The notes below the pieces were generated by a model. The model ran no database searches. It worked only from the letters and a program-made list of their open reading frames with translations, and was not told the DNA's origin. The position numbers and the translations under genes are program-made. From Myxococcales bacterium (GTDB lineage Bacteria > Myxococcota > Myxococcia > Myxococcales > Anaeromyxobacteraceae), in NCBI GenBank assembly GCA_021806645.1, contig JAJZQX010000009.1, forward strand, positions 124,001 through 188,000: 64,000 bases of DNA. The letters run 5' to 3'. Below, piece by piece: positions 7,744 to 13,615 of this stretch. Positions within the stretch are counted from its first letter, which is position 1; every line of letters starts with the position of its first letter.

Positions 7744-8108
7744 TTACCCTCGTCACAGTCATCCACGTCCTCGTCTGCGTCTTCCTCATCCTCATCATCC
7801 TGCTCCAGGCGGGCAAGGGCGGAGGCATGGGGGCCGCCTTCGGCGGTGCCGGCGCGCAGACCGTCTTCGGCGGTCGCGGCGCCCAGACCTTCCTCGGCAA
7901 GGTGACCAGCGTCAGCGCCTTCATCTTCATGCTGACGTCGCTCACGCTGGCGTACAACTCGTCGAAGGCCAAGTCGGTGCTCGACGCCCACACCCCGCCG
8001 GCCTCGACCGCCCCGGCCCCCGAGGCGCCCGCCGCGCCGTTCGCTCCGGCTCCGGCTCCGGCTCCGGCCGCGCCGGCACCCGCTCCCGCTCCCGCTCCCG
8101 CCAAGTAG
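7740..8108 (+). CDS. secG: Preprotein translocase subunit SecG
   Basis: A small SecYEG channel subunit in the inner membrane (122 residues). Two transmembrane helices (about 2-22 and 54-74) flank the diagnostic cytosolic loop [20 protein letters not shown]. The tail is Ala/Pro-rich (repeats of APAPAP). The start is a TTG at 7740 that overlaps the tpiA stop (TTGA), with AAAGG ten bases upstream, so translation is probably coupled to tpiA. The tpiA-secG order is a widely conserved bacterial arrangement. Confidence 0.93.
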
Positions 8109-8137
8109 GCGGCCGGCGCCGGGTGGACCCGGAACGA

Positions 8138-8169
8138 GAAAGGGACCCGGCGGTGGCCGGGTCCCTTTC
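8138..8169. terminator. Hairpin terminator between secG and convergent tRNA-Leu
   Basis: A perfect 13-bp stem (8138-8150 and 8157-8169; GAAAGGGACCCGG) with a 6-base loop. It lacks a long T-run on either side but sits exactly between the 3' ends of secG and tRNA-Leu(GAG), so it can serve both strands. Confidence 0.7.
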
Positions 8170-8180
8170 GATCTACTCAG

Positions 8181-8262
8181 TGCCCAGGGCGGGATTCGAA
8201 CCCGCACGCCTCACGGCGCCACCCCCTCAAGATGGTGTGTCTACCAGTTCCACCACCTGGGC
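8181..8262 (-). tRNA. tRNA-Leu (anticodon GAG)
   Basis: A class II tRNA with a long variable arm. The 7-bp acceptor stem is GCCCAGG/CCTGGGC with discriminator A; the anticodon loop TTGAGGG is held by stem CCATC/GGTGG; the T-arm is GGGTTCGAATCCC. The 3' CCA is not encoded. It reads leucine codons CUC/CUU. Confidence 0.95.
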
Positions 8263-8277
8263 TCGAAGCGGGGTCGG

Positions 8278-8306
8278 TATGTAGCAGAGGCCCGGGGAGG
8301 CTGCAA
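8278..8306 (-). promoter_or_regulatory. Promoter of tRNA-Leu(GAG)
   Basis: On the minus strand TTGCAG (8306-8301), a 17-base spacer, then TACATA (8283-8278), 16 bases before the tRNA 5' end. Spacing and position fit a sigma-70-type stable-RNA promoter. Confidence 0.6.
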
Positions 8307-8383
8307 GCACGGGCGAACACCCTCGGGTTCGAAATGACGAAGGGGAATTCGGAGCTAGAATCGGCGCTCCAAGGAGCCTTCGC

Positions 8384-8758
8384 ATGACCCGGCCGCTCGT
8401 CATCTTCCTCTCCGGCAACGGCTGGCGGGAGCGCTACCAGGCGGTCATGCTCGGCGTCACCGCCGCGTCGCTGGGCGACGCGGTCACGGTGGTGCTGGCG
8501 TTCGAACCGCTGCGCGCCTTCATGAGCGGGCGCTTCGAGGAGGGGGCTCCCGCCACCGTCCACGAGGCGCGCGTCCCGCCGCTGGCGGTCACGCTGGAGG
8601 AGGCGCGGCGCGAGCTGGGCTTGCGGGTGGTGGCCTGCGAGACCTCGGTGCGCCTGGCCGGGCTCGACCCCGAGGTGGTCCGCGCGAAGCTCGACGGGCT
8701 GGAGCCGCTCCCGTCGCTCTGGCGGCTGGCGCAGCAGGGGCGGGCGCTGGCGTTTTGA
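8384..8758 (+). CDS. DsrE/DsrF-like family protein
   Basis: A 124-residue protein with the DsrE-like alpha/beta fold pattern: strand LVIFLSGNGWRERYQAVMLG, then AASLGDAVTVVLAFEPLRAF, and a C-terminal LRVVACETSVRLAGLDP. Members of this family relay persulfide sulfur (for example DsrE and TusD) or are poorly known. A cysteine (in VVACETS) sits where the active cysteine of many DsrE proteins lies. It heads the E1/TusA/Ubl/JAMM group, 52 bases before the E1 gene, which supports a sulfur-transfer role. Confidence 0.75.
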   Translation: MTRPLVIFLSGNGWRERYQAVMLGVTAASLGDAVTVVLAFEPLRAFMSGRFEEGAPATVHEARVPPLAVTLEEARRELGLRVVACETSVRLAGLDPEVVRAKLDGLEPLPSLWRLAQQGRALAF

Positions 8759-8810
8759 TGGTGCCGGGCGCCTTGCTGGGTGGCAGACCGCGGGCTATGA
8801 CCGGACCGCG

Positions 8811-9554
8811 ATGGACCTCTCGAAGAAGAGCGCGCTGGTGATCGGCGCGGGTGGCCTCGGCGGCCCGGCCCTGTTGACCTTGGCCGCGGGCGGCGTCGGC
8901 CGGCTGGTGGTGATCGACGACGACGTGGTCGAGACCTCCAACCTCAACCGGCAGCCGCTCTTCGGCGAGGCCGACCTCGGCCAGCCCAAGGCCGTGCTGG
9001 CGGCGGCGAGGCTCCAGCAGCTCTTCCCGGCGGTCCAGGTGACGGCGCTGAACCGCCGCTTCGACGCCGGCGAGGCGGTCGAGCTGGTCTCGGGGGCCGA
9101 CGTGCTGCTCGACGGCTCGGACAACTTCCCCACCAAGTTCCTCGCCAGCGACGCCGCGCTCAAGGCCGGCAAGCCGCTGGTCCACGGCGGGGTGCTGCGC
9201 ACCTCGCTCCAGATCCTCACCGTGGCTCCCGGCTTCTCCGGCTGCGTCCGCTGCCTCTTCGAGGCGCCGCCGCCGGCCGGGCAGGTCCCGACCTGCGCCG
9301 AGGCCGGGATCGTTGGCGCCCTCTCCGGCTTCGCCGGCGGGCTGATGGGCGCCGAGGCCCTCCGGTTGCTGGCGGGCGAGCGGGGCAGCTACGCCGGGCG
9401 GCTCTTCGTCTTCGAGGCCCGCACCGGTCGCGGCCGGCTGGTGCTGGTGCGCCGCCGCCCCGGCTGTCCAGCCTGCGCCGGAACGCAGCCGCTCGAGCCG
9501 AGCGGGCCGGCCGGGCCGGTCGCCTGCGCGACGCCGGCGGGGGCGCAGCCGTGA
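8811..9554 (+). CDS. MoeB/ThiF-family E1-like adenylyltransferase
   Basis: A 247-residue E1-like enzyme that should adenylate the C-terminal glycine of a ubiquitin-fold sulfur carrier using ATP. All core motifs are visible: nucleotide loop GAGGLGGP, acidic VIDDDVVETSNLNRQ with the arginine finger, GQPKA lysine, LDGSDNF aspartate, two zinc CxxC pairs (GCVRC and GCPAC), and the conserved cysteine in PTCAEAGIVG. It lacks the rhodanese domain found in some MoeB proteins. It overlaps the TusA-like gene by GTGA, so sulfur delivery by TusA is a natural guess. Confidence 0.92.
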   Translation: MDLSKKSALVIGAGGLGGPALLTLAAGGVGRLVVIDDDVVETSNLNRQPLFGEADLGQPKAVLAAARLQQLFPAVQVTALNRRFDAGEAVELVSGADVLLDGSDNFPTKFLASDAALKAGKPLVHGGVLRTSLQILTVAPGFSGCVRCLFEAPPPAGQVPTCAEAGIVGALSGFAGGLMGAEALRLLAGERGSYAGRLFVFEARTGRGRLVLVRRRPGCPACAGTQPLEPSGPAGPVACATPAGAQP

Positions 9555-9823
9555 GCGGCCAGCCGGCTCCGGCGGCGCGCGTGGACGTGCGAGCCTTCAC
9601 CTGCCCGATCACCTGGGTGAAGACGCGGATCGCGCTGGAGCGGCTCCAGCTCGGCGACGTGCTGGAGGTGCTGCTGCGCGAGGGTGAGCCGCTCCAGAAC
9701 CTGCCCGGCAGCGCCGCGGAGGACGGTCACCGCGTGGTGTTCATGGAGCCGCTGCGCGAAGACCGGGCCGGTTCGTGGCGGATCCTGCTGGAGAAGGGGG
9801 CCGCGCCCCCGGCGCTGCCATGA
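9551..9823 (+). CDS. TusA-family sulfur carrier
   Basis: A 90-residue protein with the TusA/SirA two-layer fold. The hallmark cysteine occurs in DVRAFTCPITWVKTRIALE, where TusA proteins have CPxP; here the fourth position is Thr, not Pro. TusA-type cysteines carry persulfide between sulfurtransferases. GTG 9551 overlaps the E1 stop. Its own stop overlaps an ATG at 9820 in frame with the next gene, so the whole block appears translationally coupled. Confidence 0.85.
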   Translation: MSGQPAPAARVDVRAFTCPITWVKTRIALERLQLGDVLEVLLREGEPLQNLPGSAAEDGHRVVFMEPLREDRAGSWRILLEKGAAPPALP

Positions 9824-9846
9824 GAGGACGCGATGGAGCAGAGGCC

Positions 9847-10815
9847 ATGACCGTGACCGTCTCCATCCCGGCGCCGCTGCGCGACCTGGCCGGCGGGAAG
9901 GCCGAGTTGGACGCCTCGGGTGCCACGGTCGGGGAGGTGCTCCGCCAGGTGGCGAGAGCCTATCCGCGCCTCGGCGAGCGGCTCCTCGACGACGCCGGGC
10001 AGGTGCGCCGCCACATCGGCGTCTTCCTGGGCGACGAGGAGGTGCGCGAAGTCGGTGGGCTGGGGGCCGCGCTGCGAGACGGCGACCGGCTCTGGCTGGT
10101 GCCGGCCATCGCCGGTGGCGCGCCCGAGCTCGACGCCGAGCGGATCGCCCGGTGGGCTCGCCACCTGCTGGTGCCCGGCTTCGGGGCGGCGGGGCAGGAA
10201 CGACTGATGGCCGCGCGGGTCCGGGCCGTCGGGGCCGACGGCATGGCCACGCCGGCGCTGGTGGCGCTGGCTCAGGCCGGCGTCGGGACCATCTGGATCG
10301 ACGATGCGGAGACCGTCGGCCCGGCCGACCTGGTCGGCTGGCTCTACCGGCCGCAGGAGGTCGGGCAGCCGAGGGCCACGGTGGCCGCGGCGGCCCTTTC
10401 GAGGCTCTCCCGCTTCACCTCCGTCCTCCCGTACCCGGTCGGAGGCGCGCCGTCGGCCGCGCTCATCTGCGCCTCGTCGCCGGCGCAGGGGCTGGCGGCG
10501 GCAGAGGTGGCGCGGCGAGCCGGGATCCCGCACGTGGTCCTGGAGCTGGACGGGGAGGCGGGACAGCTGGTCTCGGTCCCGCCGGGCGCTCCGTGCCTGG
10601 CCTGCGGACGCTTCACCGCGGCGGGCGGGCGTCCGCCGGTCCCGGGTGCGCTGGCGCTGGCCTCGCTGGCGGCGCAGGAGCTGCTCCGCTTGATGGTCGA
10701 GCCGGAGGTGAAGGAGGGCCGGCGCTTCGACGTGGTCCGCGGGGTCCCGAGCGTGCGCGTCACCCAGCGGCTCCCGGGCTGCGTCTGCGGCCGCGACGAG
10801 GCGAGTGAAGCCTGA
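9847..10815 (+). CDS. MoaD/ThiS ubiquitin-like domain fused to degenerate E1 domain
   Basis: A 322-residue fusion. Residues 1-91 are a MoaD/ThiS beta-grasp domain ending in LWLVPAIAGG, the Gly-Gly that free carriers use as C-terminus. Residues about 95-315 are homologous to MoeB/ThiF (ARWARHLLVPGFGAAGQERL). The nucleotide loop is altered (GADGMATP instead of GAGGLGSP), the NLNRQ arginine region is lost (DLVGWLY), the lysine is Arg (GQPRA), and the DxSD aspartate is replaced (ICASSP), so adenylation is unlikely. Cysteine pairs CLAC and CVC remain. ATG 9847 has GGAG at -12; ATG 9820, overlapping the upstream stop, is an alternative. The JAMM gene overlaps its 3' end by 11 bases. Confidence 0.85.
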   Translation: MTVTVSIPAPLRDLAGGKAELDASGATVGEVLRQVARAYPRLGERLLDDAGQVRRHIGVFLGDEEVREVGGLGAALRDGDRLWLVPAIAGGAPELDAERIARWARHLLVPGFGAAGQERLMAARVRAVGADGMATPALVALAQAGVGTIWIDDAETVGPADLVGWLYRPQEVGQPRATVAAAALSRLSRFTSVLPYPVGGAPSAALICASSPAQGLAAAEVARRAGIPHVVLELDGEAGQLVSVPPGAPCLACGRFTAAGGRPPVPGALALASLAAQELLRLMVEPEVKEGRRFDVVRGVPSVRVTQRLPGCVCGRDEASEA

Positions 10816-11233
10816 GCTGGGTGCGGGCGGCTGGCCGATCGCCCGGCTGGTGGCGCTGGCCGAGGCTTCGCCGGCCGAGGAGGTCTGCGGGTTGCTGGTG
10901 AGCGGCACCGGCGGCGAGGTCGAGCCGTGGCCGTTCACCAACGTCTCTGCGACGCCGGCCAGCGCGTTCGAGTTCGAGCCCCGGGAACTGCTCGGGGCCT
11001 TGCGGCGGCTCGACGAGGCGGGCGGCCGGCTGGTCGCCGTCTACCACTCCCACCTAGCCGGCGGGGCCGGCCTGTCGCCACGGGACGTGGCCGGCGCGCT
11101 GGTCGACGGCGCCCCGGTCCTGCCCGGTGCCGCGCAGGTGGTGGTGGCCCTGGAGGGTGGCCGGGCGAGGCGCATCCGGGCCCATCGCTGGACCGGCCAG
11201 GGCTTCGAGCCGTCCGACCTCTGGTGGCGCTGA
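10805..11233 (+). CDS. JAMM/MPN+ metallopeptidase (JAB domain)
   Basis: A 142-residue zinc isopeptidase-type enzyme. The JAMM signature is complete: Glu in PAEEVCGLLV (residue 25/26), His81 and His83 in YHSHLAGG, and Asp94 ten residues later (GLSPRD). Bacterial relatives (for example Mec+ with CysO) remove groups from, or mature, the Gly-Gly end of ubiquitin-like sulfur carriers. GTG 10805 overlaps the fusion gene, so the likely substrate is that fusion or a protein modified by it. Confidence 0.9.
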   Translation: MKPELGAGGWPIARLVALAEASPAEEVCGLLVSGTGGEVEPWPFTNVSATPASAFEFEPRELLGALRRLDEAGGRLVAVYHSHLAGGAGLSPRDVAGALVDGAPVLPGAAQVVVALEGGRARRIRAHRWTGQGFEPSDLWWR

Positions 11234-11313
11234 GTGAATTCCCATGTCGAGGTCGCATTTCTCTAACCTGCCGACAGAACGCGGGAAAACACGACCGGAC
11301 TTGCGAACTCCAC

Positions 11314-11342
11314 TTGGATCCGAGGGCGTGGCGCGATATACT
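11314..11342 (+). promoter_or_regulatory. Promoter of the APS-kinase-like gene
   Basis: TTGGAT at 11314-11319, a 17-base spacer, then TATACT at 11337-11342; the ATG is at 11370. The 136-base gap after the JAMM gene and this promoter suggest a separate transcript from the E1/JAMM operon. Confidence 0.65.
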
Positions 11343-11369
11343 TTGTGTTCACCCCGCACCGAGGTCTGC

Positions 11370-12053
11370 ATGAACTTTCAGCAGAGCACCGGGTTCGTCA
11401 TCTGGCTGACCGGAATGAAGAAGGCCGGGAAGACCACCCTCGCCACGCAGCTGGCGCAGCGGCTGACGCAGGCGGGGCGGGTGGTCCAGCTGCTCGACGA
11501 GGACGGCGAGGCGAAGTTCCTCCTCGAGGGGCTCGGGCCCTCCAAGGACGGCCAGGTCACGGCGGTGAAGCGGTTCGGATACACGGCCAAGGCGGTGGCC
11601 AGGTCGGGCGGGATCGCCGTCTGCGCGGCACTCTCCCCGTTCCGCGAGCCGCGCGAGCAGCTGCGGCGCGAGGCGCGCCGCTTCGTCGAGGTCTTCGTCG
11701 ACTGCACCATCGAGAAGCTGATGGATCGGGACGGCAAGGAGGCCTACTACAAGAAGGCGATGACCGGCGAGATCACGCAGGTGGCGGGTGTTGACCTTCC
11801 GTACGAGCCGCCGGTTCACCCCGAGCTGGTGCTCCACACCGAGCAGGAGCCGGTCGAGGCCTGCCTCACCCGCATCTTCCAGGCCCTGGTAGACGGCAAG
11901 TTCATCGGCCCGACCGAGTTCGGGCGGCTCACCGGCGGCCTCAAGCCGAAGCGGAAGTCGGGCAAGCCGGCCAGGGCGGGCCAGGGGGCCAAGCCACCGA
12001 AGGCGGCCAAGGCGAAGAAGGCGGCGGGCAAGGCGGGCAAGAAGAAGCGCTGA
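11370..12053 (+). CDS. APS-kinase-like (CysC family) protein with basic tail
   Basis: A 227-residue P-loop kinase. The Walker A motif is GMKKAGKTT (residues 15-23). SPFREPRE, VFVDCTIE, YYKKAMTGEI and VDLPYEPPVHPEL follow the order seen in adenylylsulfate kinases (APS + ATP to PAPS). Two usual substrate-site elements differ: the LDGDxxR strand is LDEDGEAKFLL, and the RxxNxxR segment is not evident. The last 35 residues are a Lys/Ala-rich tail. It may be a true CysC or a diverged kinase for another adenylated or sulfated substrate. It sits between the JAMM operon and larE. Confidence 0.75.
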   Translation: MNFQQSTGFVIWLTGMKKAGKTTLATQLAQRLTQAGRVVQLLDEDGEAKFLLEGLGPSKDGQVTAVKRFGYTAKAVARSGGIAVCAALSPFREPREQLRREARRFVEVFVDCTIEKLMDRDGKEAYYKKAMTGEITQVAGVDLPYEPPVHPELVLHTEQEPVEACLTRIFQALVDGKFIGPTEFGRLTGGLKPKRKSGKPARAGQGAKPPKAAKAKKAAGKAGKKKR

Positions 12054-12105
12054 CGCCCCGACCGCGATCCCGTTACCCGAAGTGCCGGGCGGTACGTTTC
12101 GAATC

Positions 12106-12957
12106 ATGCGCGCCGAAGTGGAACCGCTGCGACAGGCTTCACGCCCCGCGCTGGAGGGGCTGCGGCGCCAGCTGGCCGGCTACGGCCGCGTGCTGGTCGC
12201 CTTCTCCGGCGGTGTCGATTCGACCTTCCTGCTGGCGGTCGCCCGGGAGGTGCTCGGCGACGGGGCGCTGGCACTCACGACCCACTCGCCCAGTGTCCCC
12301 GAGTCGGAGCGGGCCGAGGCGCGTGCGCTGGCGGCCCGGCTGGGCGCCCGGCACGTCGAGGTGGTGAGCCGCGAGGGGGACGACCCTGCCTACACCGCCA
12401 ACACCGACCAGCGCTGCTACTTCTGCAAGCGGGAACTCTACCGGCTCTGCCTCGAGGTGGCGACGACGGAGGGGATTCCGGCCATCGCCGACGGCTACAA
12501 CGCCGACGATCGGCGCGACCATCGGCCGGGCCGTCGCGCGGCCGAGGAGGCGGGGGTCTTCTCCCCGCTGGCGGAGGCCGGGATGGGAAAGCCGGCCATC
12601 AGGGCCTGGAGCGAGGCGTTCGGCTTGCCGACCTGGGACAAGCCCCAGCTGGCCTGCCTCGCCTCGAGGATCCCTTACGGCACGGCGGTGACCCCGGAGC
12701 GGCTGGCGCAGGTGGAGCGCGCCGAGGCGGCGGTTCGGGCGCTCGGGCTGCGGAGCTTCCGGGTGCGTCACCACGGCGAGGTGGGGCGGCTGGAGGTGGC
12801 CGAGGAGGAGCTGGCCGGCGCCTTCGCGCGCCGCGAGGTGCTGGGGGCGGCGGTGAGGCAGGCAGGCTTCCGGAGCGCCGCGCTCGACCTCGAGCCGTTC
12901 CGCTCGGGGCGGATGAACGAGCTGGCGGGCATCCCGTTGCCGGTGGTGGCGTCGTGA
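12106..12957 (+). CDS. larE: ATP-dependent sacrificial sulfur transferase LarE
   Basis: PP-loop pyrophosphatase-type enzyme that, in lactate racemase cofactor synthesis, donates sulfur to the pyridinium biscarboxylate precursor of the nickel-pincer nucleotide. The PP-loop AFSGGVDSTFLLA is near the N-terminus; NTDQRCYFCKRELY, DGYNADDRRDHRPG and KPQLACLASRIPYG are typical. The cysteine in ACLASR matches the sulfur-donating position of the L. plantarum enzyme. The CYFC pair adds two more cysteines, as in cluster-type LarE. No larA/B/C is nearby, so this copy may serve another sulfur pathway. ATG 12106 is preferred; GTG 12082 is possible. Confidence 0.88.
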   Translation: MRAEVEPLRQASRPALEGLRRQLAGYGRVLVAFSGGVDSTFLLAVAREVLGDGALALTTHSPSVPESERAEARALAARLGARHVEVVSREGDDPAYTANTDQRCYFCKRELYRLCLEVATTEGIPAIADGYNADDRRDHRPGRRAAEEAGVFSPLAEAGMGKPAIRAWSEAFGLPTWDKPQLACLASRIPYGTAVTPERLAQVERAEAAVRALGLRSFRVRHHGEVGRLEVAEEELAGAFARREVLGAAVRQAGFRSAALDLEPFRSGRMNELAGIPLPVVAS

Positions 12958-13505
12958 GCCGCCTGGCGTTCCCCCGGGCCGGCGCCTGGGGGCTGATGGC
13001 CCTCGCCGCGGCCTGCATGAGCGCGCCCGCCCTGGCGGCTGCCCTGGAGCCGCGCTTCGACCACCGCGACCAGCAGGGGCTGCTGGCCGAGCTGGGTGTC
13101 GCCCGCGACTCGGTGGTGGTGGGCGGGCTGACCAACGCGAGCTACCGGCCGTCGCTCCGGGTGGCCTGGGGCTTCGACTTGAGCGGGGAGGGGGACGAGC
13201 TGCAGCTGGGCGGCACGGTGCGGCTTGGGAGCTGGTCCGATCCGCGGAAGGTGAAGCGGCTCTACGGCATCGACGCCATGTACCGCGCCTACTTCGGGTC
13301 GGAGGAGCTGAAGACCTTCGTCGAGATCGGCGTCTGGGCGAACCTCGCCTCGCGGCTGGCGGCCGGAGGGCTGGCAGGGATCGGACTCGCCTACGATCCG
13401 TCAAGGGCGTGGGGGTTCTACGCCGCGGCCCGATTCGGTGGAGGCTACGGCGAGGCGCGCATCACCAGCGTGGAGGTCGTGTCCGGACTGCAACTCCGCT
13501 GGTAG
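12954..13505 (+). CDS. Exported outer-membrane-barrel-like protein
   Basis: A 183-residue protein with a signal peptide (MALAAACMSAPALAAA, cleavage about residue 29). It then has alternating hydrophobic/polar beta-strands (YRPSLRVAWGFDL, LQLGGTVRLGSW, WGFYAAARFGGGYGEARI) and ends in LQLRW; a terminal aromatic residue is usual for outer-membrane barrels. No catalytic motif is seen. GTG 12954 overlaps the larE stop, which couples the two genes although no functional link is apparent. Confidence 0.7.
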   Translation: MSRLAFPRAGAWGLMALAAACMSAPALAAALEPRFDHRDQQGLLAELGVARDSVVVGGLTNASYRPSLRVAWGFDLSGEGDELQLGGTVRLGSWSDPRKVKRLYGIDAMYRAYFGSEELKTFVEIGVWANLASRLAAGGLAGIGLAYDPSRAWGFYAAARFGGGYGEARITSVEVVSGLQLRW

Positions 13506-13577
13506 GCCCGCCTGCCGTGGTGGCCCCAGATGGGTGCCATAGCCAATTTCTTGCGACACTGGTATCAGGTGGTAGCG

Positions 13578-13615
13578 TGTAGGCAAACGTAGTCAATTCA
13601 CTCCAGGAGCCTACA
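13578..13615 (+). promoter_or_regulatory. Inverted repeat over the ribosome-binding site of the RHH gene
   Basis: TGTAGGC at 13578-13584 and GCCTACA at 13609-13615 form a perfect 7-bp inverted repeat. The right arm lies directly between the AGGAG ribosome-binding site (13605-13609) and the ATG at 13617. It could be an operator for the encoded ribbon-helix-helix protein or an mRNA hairpin masking the start. Confidence 0.5.

Follow-up and report, generated by a model that had tools for sequence, protein, structure and literature searches.

Why would a compact bacterial operon encode two proteins that resemble the E1 activating enzymes of ubiquitin-like proteins (Ubls)? The question is raised by a locus at positions 8384-11233 of a 64,000-nucleotide stretch from a Myxococcales bacterium of the Anaeromyxobacteraceae (contig JAJZQX010000009.1 of assembly GCA_021806645.1, positions 124,001 to 188,000; hereafter the window, whose numbering we use). 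Our preferred answer, to which we give a probability of roughly 0.7, is that this is a sulfur-carrier operon with an obligate heterodimeric E1, in which a pseudo-E1 (E1psi) would lend an arginine to the active subunit, and that its product route would pass through a Ubl thiocarboxylate. The grounds lie in the sequence, namely reciprocal loss of residues and their co-loss, conservation of the operon, and motifs; from these we infer dimerisation, adenylation, thiocarboxylate formation, JAMM cleavage and the product. The protein encoded at 8811-9554 would hold the ATP site, and E1psi, having no working site, would insert the arginine of its N-terminal helix into the site of its partner, like the inactive half of eukaryotic E1s. 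The pair would adenylate the C-terminal glycine of the Ubl, and DsrE and TusA would bring persulfide sulfur to turn it into a thiocarboxylate.

The two E1-like proteins of the window differ in the residues they carry. The active subunit (8811-9554, plus strand, 247 amino acids) matches the Pfam family ThiF at 209 bits; apart from one sub-threshold Rossmann match this is its only Pfam domain, with no Cys or ubiquitin-fold domain. It has the ThiF fold and glycine-rich loop of MoeB- and ThiF-type E1s, its R47, K60 and D104 align with MoeB R73, K86 and D130, and its zinc-type cysteines are residues 145, 148, 219 and 222. It begins six residues ahead of its Rossmann strand and lacks the N-terminal arginine that MoeB-type E1s have in the same chain. 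E1psi (10120..10815, plus strand) matches ThiF at 55.3 bits, the match covering just positions 2-95 of the 238 in the profile. It has lost the adenylation residues and keeps the zinc-type cysteines and the N-terminal arginine segment, RIARWARHLLVPGF. The core of this Arg finger, RIARWARH, holds two invariant arginines, encoded at 10150-10152 and 10159-10161. The original prediction had called this protein a pseudo-E1; it reads rather as the missing half of an E1, bearing the arginine not present in the protein encoded at 8811-9554. Lacking it, the latter would be expected to fail at adenylation on its own.

We collected related loci to see how general this organisation is. Every one of 60 genomes, the window's own included, gave a match to the Ubl-E1psi fusion protein, many of the matches being ordinary E1s. 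Forty stretches were fetched first, and an E1 alignment searched against 146 genomes of the same phylum then supplied 40 more; the window was added and all were scored with profiles. Eleven side loci (second copies, MoeZ-type loci and L071) were set apart, leaving 70 loci, of which 63 extend to the kinase or LarE gene; L033 and L034 were taken as one and only L034 was counted. The first set was chosen by fusion-protein matches, the second by an E1 hit, which biases E1 frequencies upward, and further loci by LarE. Among the 63 loci the kinase is found in 63, E1 in 61, LarE and E1psi in 60 each, the Arg-finger segment in 59, TusA in 53, JAMM in 45, Ubl in 35, DsrE in 18 and PALP in 11; since the profiles for DsrE, TusA, Ubl, JAMM, kinase and LarE derive from the first locus set, they may miss diverged members. 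An E1 and an Arg-finger open reading frame (ORF) are adjacent in 64 of the 70 profile-annotated loci, and gap/pgk/secG and truA/clpX flank the operon in many relatives. Recurring in related genomes, often beside the same flanking genes, the arrangement is not due to chance. The co-occurrence in relatives that the original prediction proposed to look for was found: the genes recur together instead of being scattered, and the set of persulfide relay, activating E1, Ubl and JAMM is conserved as one unit. DsrE, whose label is weak, was found in 18 of the 63 loci, every one of them belonging to the window's family; its profile was built from that family, such that diverged forms elsewhere may escape it. 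The five genes of the earlier description are real, and the unit is larger than these five, including the kinase-like gene and larE.

The differences between the two proteins are maintained across these loci. In 67 operonic E1 rows aligned jointly with MoeB, the glycine-rich loop is always present and N70, R73, K86 and D130 are each present in 66, the sole miss at each position being L110. In 41 E1psi rows scoring above 150 bits (20 of them belonging to the window's family, 21 not), R11 and R14 are present in all, Q15 in 40, K86 in one, and N70, R73 and D130 in none, with gaps at R73 in 23 rows and at D130 in 18. For 70 of 78 E1s (hits above 150 bits), no motif of the type R-x-x-R-[QHN] occurs within the 48 upstream residues read in frame with the E1; the eight that have it are seven rhodanese-fused E1s and L104. 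An in-frame stop lies less than 25 codons upstream in 22 of the 78, which therefore cannot encode the arginine helix. Among Arg-finger ORFs (above 23 bits) the motif is found in 66 of 68, and the other two (L064, L109) retain the second arginine. The mean pairwise identity is 0.57 in the arginine segment versus 0.43 in the rest of E1psi, the same comparison giving 0.75 and 0.74 in eight single-chain E1s. The ratio of nonsynonymous to synonymous substitution rates is 0.25 for E1psi, indicating purifying selection, and 0.22 for E1.

Comparison with sequences in the PDB separates the two proteins along the same line. The E1psi profile matches MoeB best, aligning from MoeB residue 8, and scores SAE1 (1e-10) and NAE1 (4e-8) ahead of SAE2/UBA3 (about 1e-5 to 3e-5); the second of its invariant arginines corresponds to MoeB R14 and, when positions are counted off within the aligned ranges, to human UBA1 R57 and yeast Uba1 R21. 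For the E1 profile the MoeB alignment begins at residue 33; SAE2, UBA3 and the second (active) half of UBA1 are matched as well, and its 41 PDB hits at 1e-20 include neither SAE1 nor NAE1. According to published work, one near-N-terminal arginine of MoeB contacts the triphosphate and canonical E1s carry that arginine in the inactive domain (PMC9378703). It acts across the E1 dimer to ATP (PMC9378703, PMC7527816), and in UBA1 Arg57 and Arg515 hold a sulfate at the gamma-phosphate site (PMC12355090). SAE1-UBA2 and NAE1-UBA3 resemble the window pair in having separate active and inactive adenylation subunits with the arginine in the inactive one; the window pair differs in that its E1 lacks the Cys and ubiquitin-fold domains and stands in a sulfur-carrier context, and we assume an independent origin. 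Reviews describe MoeB and ThiF as homodimers, and place E1s with one active and one inactive domain in eukaryotes and in the single-chain BilD of the Bil antiphage operons. BilD likewise combines an inactive and an active adenylation domain in a bacterium, but in one chain with a Cys domain, whereas the window locus has two genes and neither a Cys domain nor an E2 (PMC11354881). No two-gene bacterial E1 turned up in searches of open-licence PMC papers, and an earlier mention is possible. If our reading is true, a two-gene bacterial E1 of a sulfur pathway would mean that the step behind the SUMO and NEDD8 E1s had also been taken independently in bacteria.

Could E1psi instead be a structural or regulatory remnant, with E1 acting alone as a homodimer? 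The erosion of E1psi to 88-123 amino acids, from motif to stop, in seven loci might suggest so, but these reduced forms retain exactly the arginine helix that the operonic E1s lack. The pattern of losses also argues against it. In L110 (genome G128) and L148 (G122) E1 has lost catalytic residues and E1psi its arginine segment, and in L073, L146, L147, L149, L150 and L151 neither E1, E1psi nor TusA was found, Ubl, JAMM, kinase and LarE being retained. Hence, wherever E1 is dead (two loci) or gone (six), the arginine segment is missing too, in 8 of 8 cases; these come from three genera of one family and perhaps represent two or three events. Three further, more divergent loci (L152, L154, L157) keep both halves, and L138 is an exception to the pairing at a contig end. 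A remnant is favoured by second-copy pairs in which E1psi retains R14 beside an apparently dead E1. On balance, we consider a remnant unlikely.

Several observations weigh against an obligate heterodimer. In the second-copy pairs just mentioned (L046, L051 and L052), E1 has lost N70 and D130 in all three and R73 in two, with R14 kept in E1psi. Locus L108 has a truncated E1 that lacks the motif, its stretch yielded no E1psi, and all 41 full-length E1psi rows come from only two families. The N-terminal helix of E1psi could be kept for packing and not for its arginine. Two single-chain AlphaFold2 models, made from two-row alignments, had predicted local distance difference test scores of 42.2 and 41.0 and were not used. 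Finally, no Ubl was found (E up to 1e-8) in 15 of the 60 genomes, 12 of which carry the E1-E1psi pair (G003, G004, G007, G008, G010, G012, G016, G018, G028, G030, G034 and G042; G003, G010 and G018 are less than 85% complete). In these genomes the role could fall to a more distant Ubl of the MoaD or ThiS kind. A search of the Ubl-less loci for a replacement, in the form of an ORF ending in two glycines (GG), gave nothing convincing: the candidates resemble spurious frames or glycine-rich E1 tails.

The second E1-E1psi pairs (L046:7067-8418, L051:6200-7574 and L052:7556-8901) belong to three genomes of the window's family; a multicopper oxidase gene (L051) and a TIG-domain gene (L052) are their neighbours.

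How might the split have arisen? Locus L104 comes from within the class but from outside the order. Its E1 is a single chain that carries the arginine, its operon is otherwise similar, with TusA, Ubl, PALP, JAMM, kinase and LarE, and it is likely to show the ancestral state. The E1 is split as well in L106 and L107, elsewhere in the phylum. In a tree of 76 rows, from which 13 E1 rows (near-duplicates), 31 of the 41 E1psi rows and the three second-copy E1psi were left out, the split E1s fall on one side of a branch with support 47/78, which is compatible with a single origin and does not demonstrate it. The outgroup locus L108 encodes Ubl, PALP and JAMM, then a fused ATP sulfurylase-APS (adenylylsulfate) kinase (327 and 215 bits) and a second PALP, and a gene for an Rrf2 regulator lies near both L104 and L108, pointing to an ancestry in sulfate assimilation. 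With loci at the stages of single chain, full E1psi, eroded E1psi and joint loss, the reason for the asymmetry of E1s would become testable.

The Ubl of the window shares its ORF with E1psi (9820 or 9847-10815, plus strand; 331 or 322 amino acids depending on the start). Its domain, which is MoaD/ThiS-like and SAMP1-like (9847..10119, with the start at 9847 or 9820), matches ThiS at 40.3 bits and ends in PAIAGG, the GG codons being 10114-10119; the residues after the GG of the fusion are APELD. Of the four genomes of the genus examined, three have Ubl and E1psi fused in a single open frame (the window, L034 and L035); in the fourth, L036, no Ubl is found in the contig, which ends there. Across loci the Ubl domain ends in GG in 24 aligned rows, four with one extra residue. 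The adjacent JAMM peptidase gene (10805-11233, plus strand, 142 amino acids; Prok-JAB, 43.7 bits) has the HxH-x7-S-x2-D motif at 11045-11086, a motif kept in 52 of 53 JAMM matches across loci. Ubl and JAMM tend to occur together: 34 of the 63 loci have both, 17 neither, 11 only JAMM and one only Ubl (Fisher p 3e-7, with kinship not corrected for). Within this genus the Ubl would be made as a pro-protein with E1psi as its tail, and JAMM would plausibly cut after the GG to release it. The MoaD-MoaE fusion MoaX offers a precedent, a Ubl with an internal GG ahead of a partner that has to be cut off, the cut being shown between Gly82 and Ser83; there the partner is MoaE and the paper identifies no protease, whereas here it is E1psi and a JAMM gene is adjacent (PMC4326299). 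In L065:6876-7775, from another family, the Ubl is fused instead to the C-terminus of the active E1. Elsewhere in the window's genome, G000:C1:92782-93036 encodes a MoaD-like Ubl with a C-terminal GG, in a frame overlapping an ORF with BNR-repeat matches.

A Ubl with a JAMM peptidase may also suggest conjugation to proteins, as with SAMPs, the JAMM being a deconjugase. Matches in NCBIfam include SAMP1 for the Ubl (55.8 bits) and archaeal desampylase for JAMM (53.5 bits), but both are below their cut-offs (60 and 130). No E2 or E3 was found among the scanned ORFs, PADLOC matches are limited to the E1 part of E1-E2 fusions, and TusA, LarE and PALP indicate sulfur. We regard conjugation as very unlikely. 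For the same lack of an E2 domain, with PADLOC matching just that E1 part, we set aside a defence system of the Bil or E1-E2 antiphage type.

We read the operon as one for sulfur transfer; it probably yields a Ubl thiocarboxylate, which would feed a product enzyme, either LarE or a cysteine synthase. One possible product is the nickel-pincer cofactor, for which the thiocarboxylate would replenish LarE's [4Fe-4S] cluster, in the way that TtuB serves TtuA; we put this at less than even odds. The LarE-type PP-loop sulfur transferase (12082-12957, plus strand) scores 304.7 bits against TIGR00268 (cut-off 150) and has SGGVDS, CxxC and the third cysteine; among 59 LarE matches, CxxC is kept in 59, the third cysteine in 55 and SGGxDS in 50. 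In the published comparison, LarE of T. maritima is likened to TtuA, a tri-Cys [4Fe-4S] PP-loop enzyme that the thiocarboxylate of TtuB feeds with sulfur (PMC9283937); the window has LarE in place of TtuA, with its Ubl as a candidate link. A LarC match is present in 56 of 60 genomes, and the operonic LarE is the only one above the cut-off in 37 of 60 (read from the place list). Moreover, the six loci that lost E1, E1psi and TusA retain Ubl, JAMM, kinase and LarE together. Against this, L107 and L108 have no LarE, four f3 genomes (L144, L145, L153, L156) have LarE without the module beside it, and the window genome's second LarE adjoins a partial LarC match on another contig (G000:C1:112709-114285); gene neighbourhood alone does not prove joint function. 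In L063:2815-3626 the LarE match is split across two frames, by a frameshift or a sequencing error. If the link holds, the operon offers a testable sulfur source for LarE.

The other product we consider, at the same odds, is cysteine, by a route of the CysO-CysM-Mec+ type in which the thiocarboxylate would go to a pyridoxal phosphate-dependent cysteine synthase and JAMM would free the adduct. A CysM-like PALP gene separates Ubl/E1psi from JAMM in 11 of the 63 loci, two of which (L104 and L108) lie outside the order, and the same is seen in L065, L107 and L152; the continuation of L108 into sulfate-assimilation genes with a second PALP, and the nearby Rrf2 genes, fit the same route. However, no CysM/PALP was found by Pfam among the scanned ORFs of the window, and PALP is missing in 52 of the 63 loci whereas LarE stays in 60. 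In addition, some relatives (L055-L057) have a separate Ubl-MoeZ-PALP-JAMM locus. The mycobacterial CysO-CysM-Mec+ system with MoeZ shares Ubl-GG, E1 and JAMM with our locus and the CysM-like gene with some relatives; in contrast, the window has TusA for the rhodanese domain, a split E1, LarE and the kinase (PMC3227635). A fuller history, which we hold rather unlikely as a whole, would have the bacterial heterodimeric E1 arise by duplication and complementary loss, E1psi erode to roughly 90-120 residues in some families, and the JAMM-cut Ubl of this genus pass its thiocarboxylate to a [4Fe-4S] LarE for the nickel-pincer cofactor.

Where does the kinase belong? The APS-kinase-like P-loop protein (11370-12053, plus strand) scores 142.4 bits against TIGR00455 (cut-off 138.7). 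The arginine of the DGDN(I/V)R motif is APS-binding in APS kinase. It is absent here, the window having DEDGEAKF; none of 29 aligned rows has an arginine at that place, and the kinase of the outgroup L108 keeps it. In the 60 genomes, ATP sulfurylase (PF01747) was matched in 10 and CysD in 29. Among the 43 genomes with a completeness of 90% or more and no more than 5% contamination, 15 have neither, and all 43 have an APS-kinase match, which need not be the operonic gene. The loss of the arginine, together with the persistence of a match where no APS-making enzyme was found, suggests that the substrate may have changed; it is doubtful that the operonic protein is a true APS kinase. In the window's genome CysD is present and the operonic gene is the only APS-kinase match.

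The original prediction had recognised no precedent for its five-gene set. In fact, operon class 4e of Iyer et al. 2006, found in the company of genes for sulfate assimilation, combines ThiS/MoaD, JAB, a rhodanese-free E1, SirA (= TusA) and adenylylsulfate kinase, components that it shares with our locus; its description, as available, differs in giving no pseudo-E1, DsrE or LarE (PMC1779556). Apart from the APS-kinase-like gene, there are no sulfate transport or reduction genes among the eight window ORFs scanned (8384-13505). Nor do these eight include thiamine or molybdopterin synthesis genes, and an operon for either, which would have spoken against the earlier proposal, was rejected.

All five predicted ORFs are present on the plus strand. 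As had been noted, four of the five genes overlap by a few bases: E1 and TusA by 4, TusA and Ubl-E1psi by 4 (with the 9820 start) and Ubl-E1psi and JAMM by 11; DsrE alone is separate, its stop lying 52 bases from the E1 start. The TusA-like sulfur carrier (9551-9823, 90 amino acids) matches Pfam TusA at 53.5 bits, with a CPxT motif and its cysteine codon at 9602-9604; Cys-Pro is present in 56 of 56 TusA matches across loci. The DsrE-like protein (8384-8758, plus strand, 124 amino acids; cysteine codon 8636-8638) has the weakest label in the operon, at 18.3 bits against Pfam DsrE (cut-off 25). Of 13 members of its family, five match DsrE (best 3.9e-5) and six DrsE_2 (E up to 1); its best PDB profile match is 2qs7 (E 0.021), with its cysteine aligned, and this cysteine is kept in 19 of 19 rows. 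A consensus scan of 8100-13600 gave no terminator-like sites (1.7 expected by chance) and one weak promoter-like site (0.1 expected), at 8334..8361 on the plus strand, directly 5' of the DsrE-like gene, the first of the operon. Directly upstream of the operon, a tRNA-Leu (gag) is encoded on the minus strand at 8180-8262.

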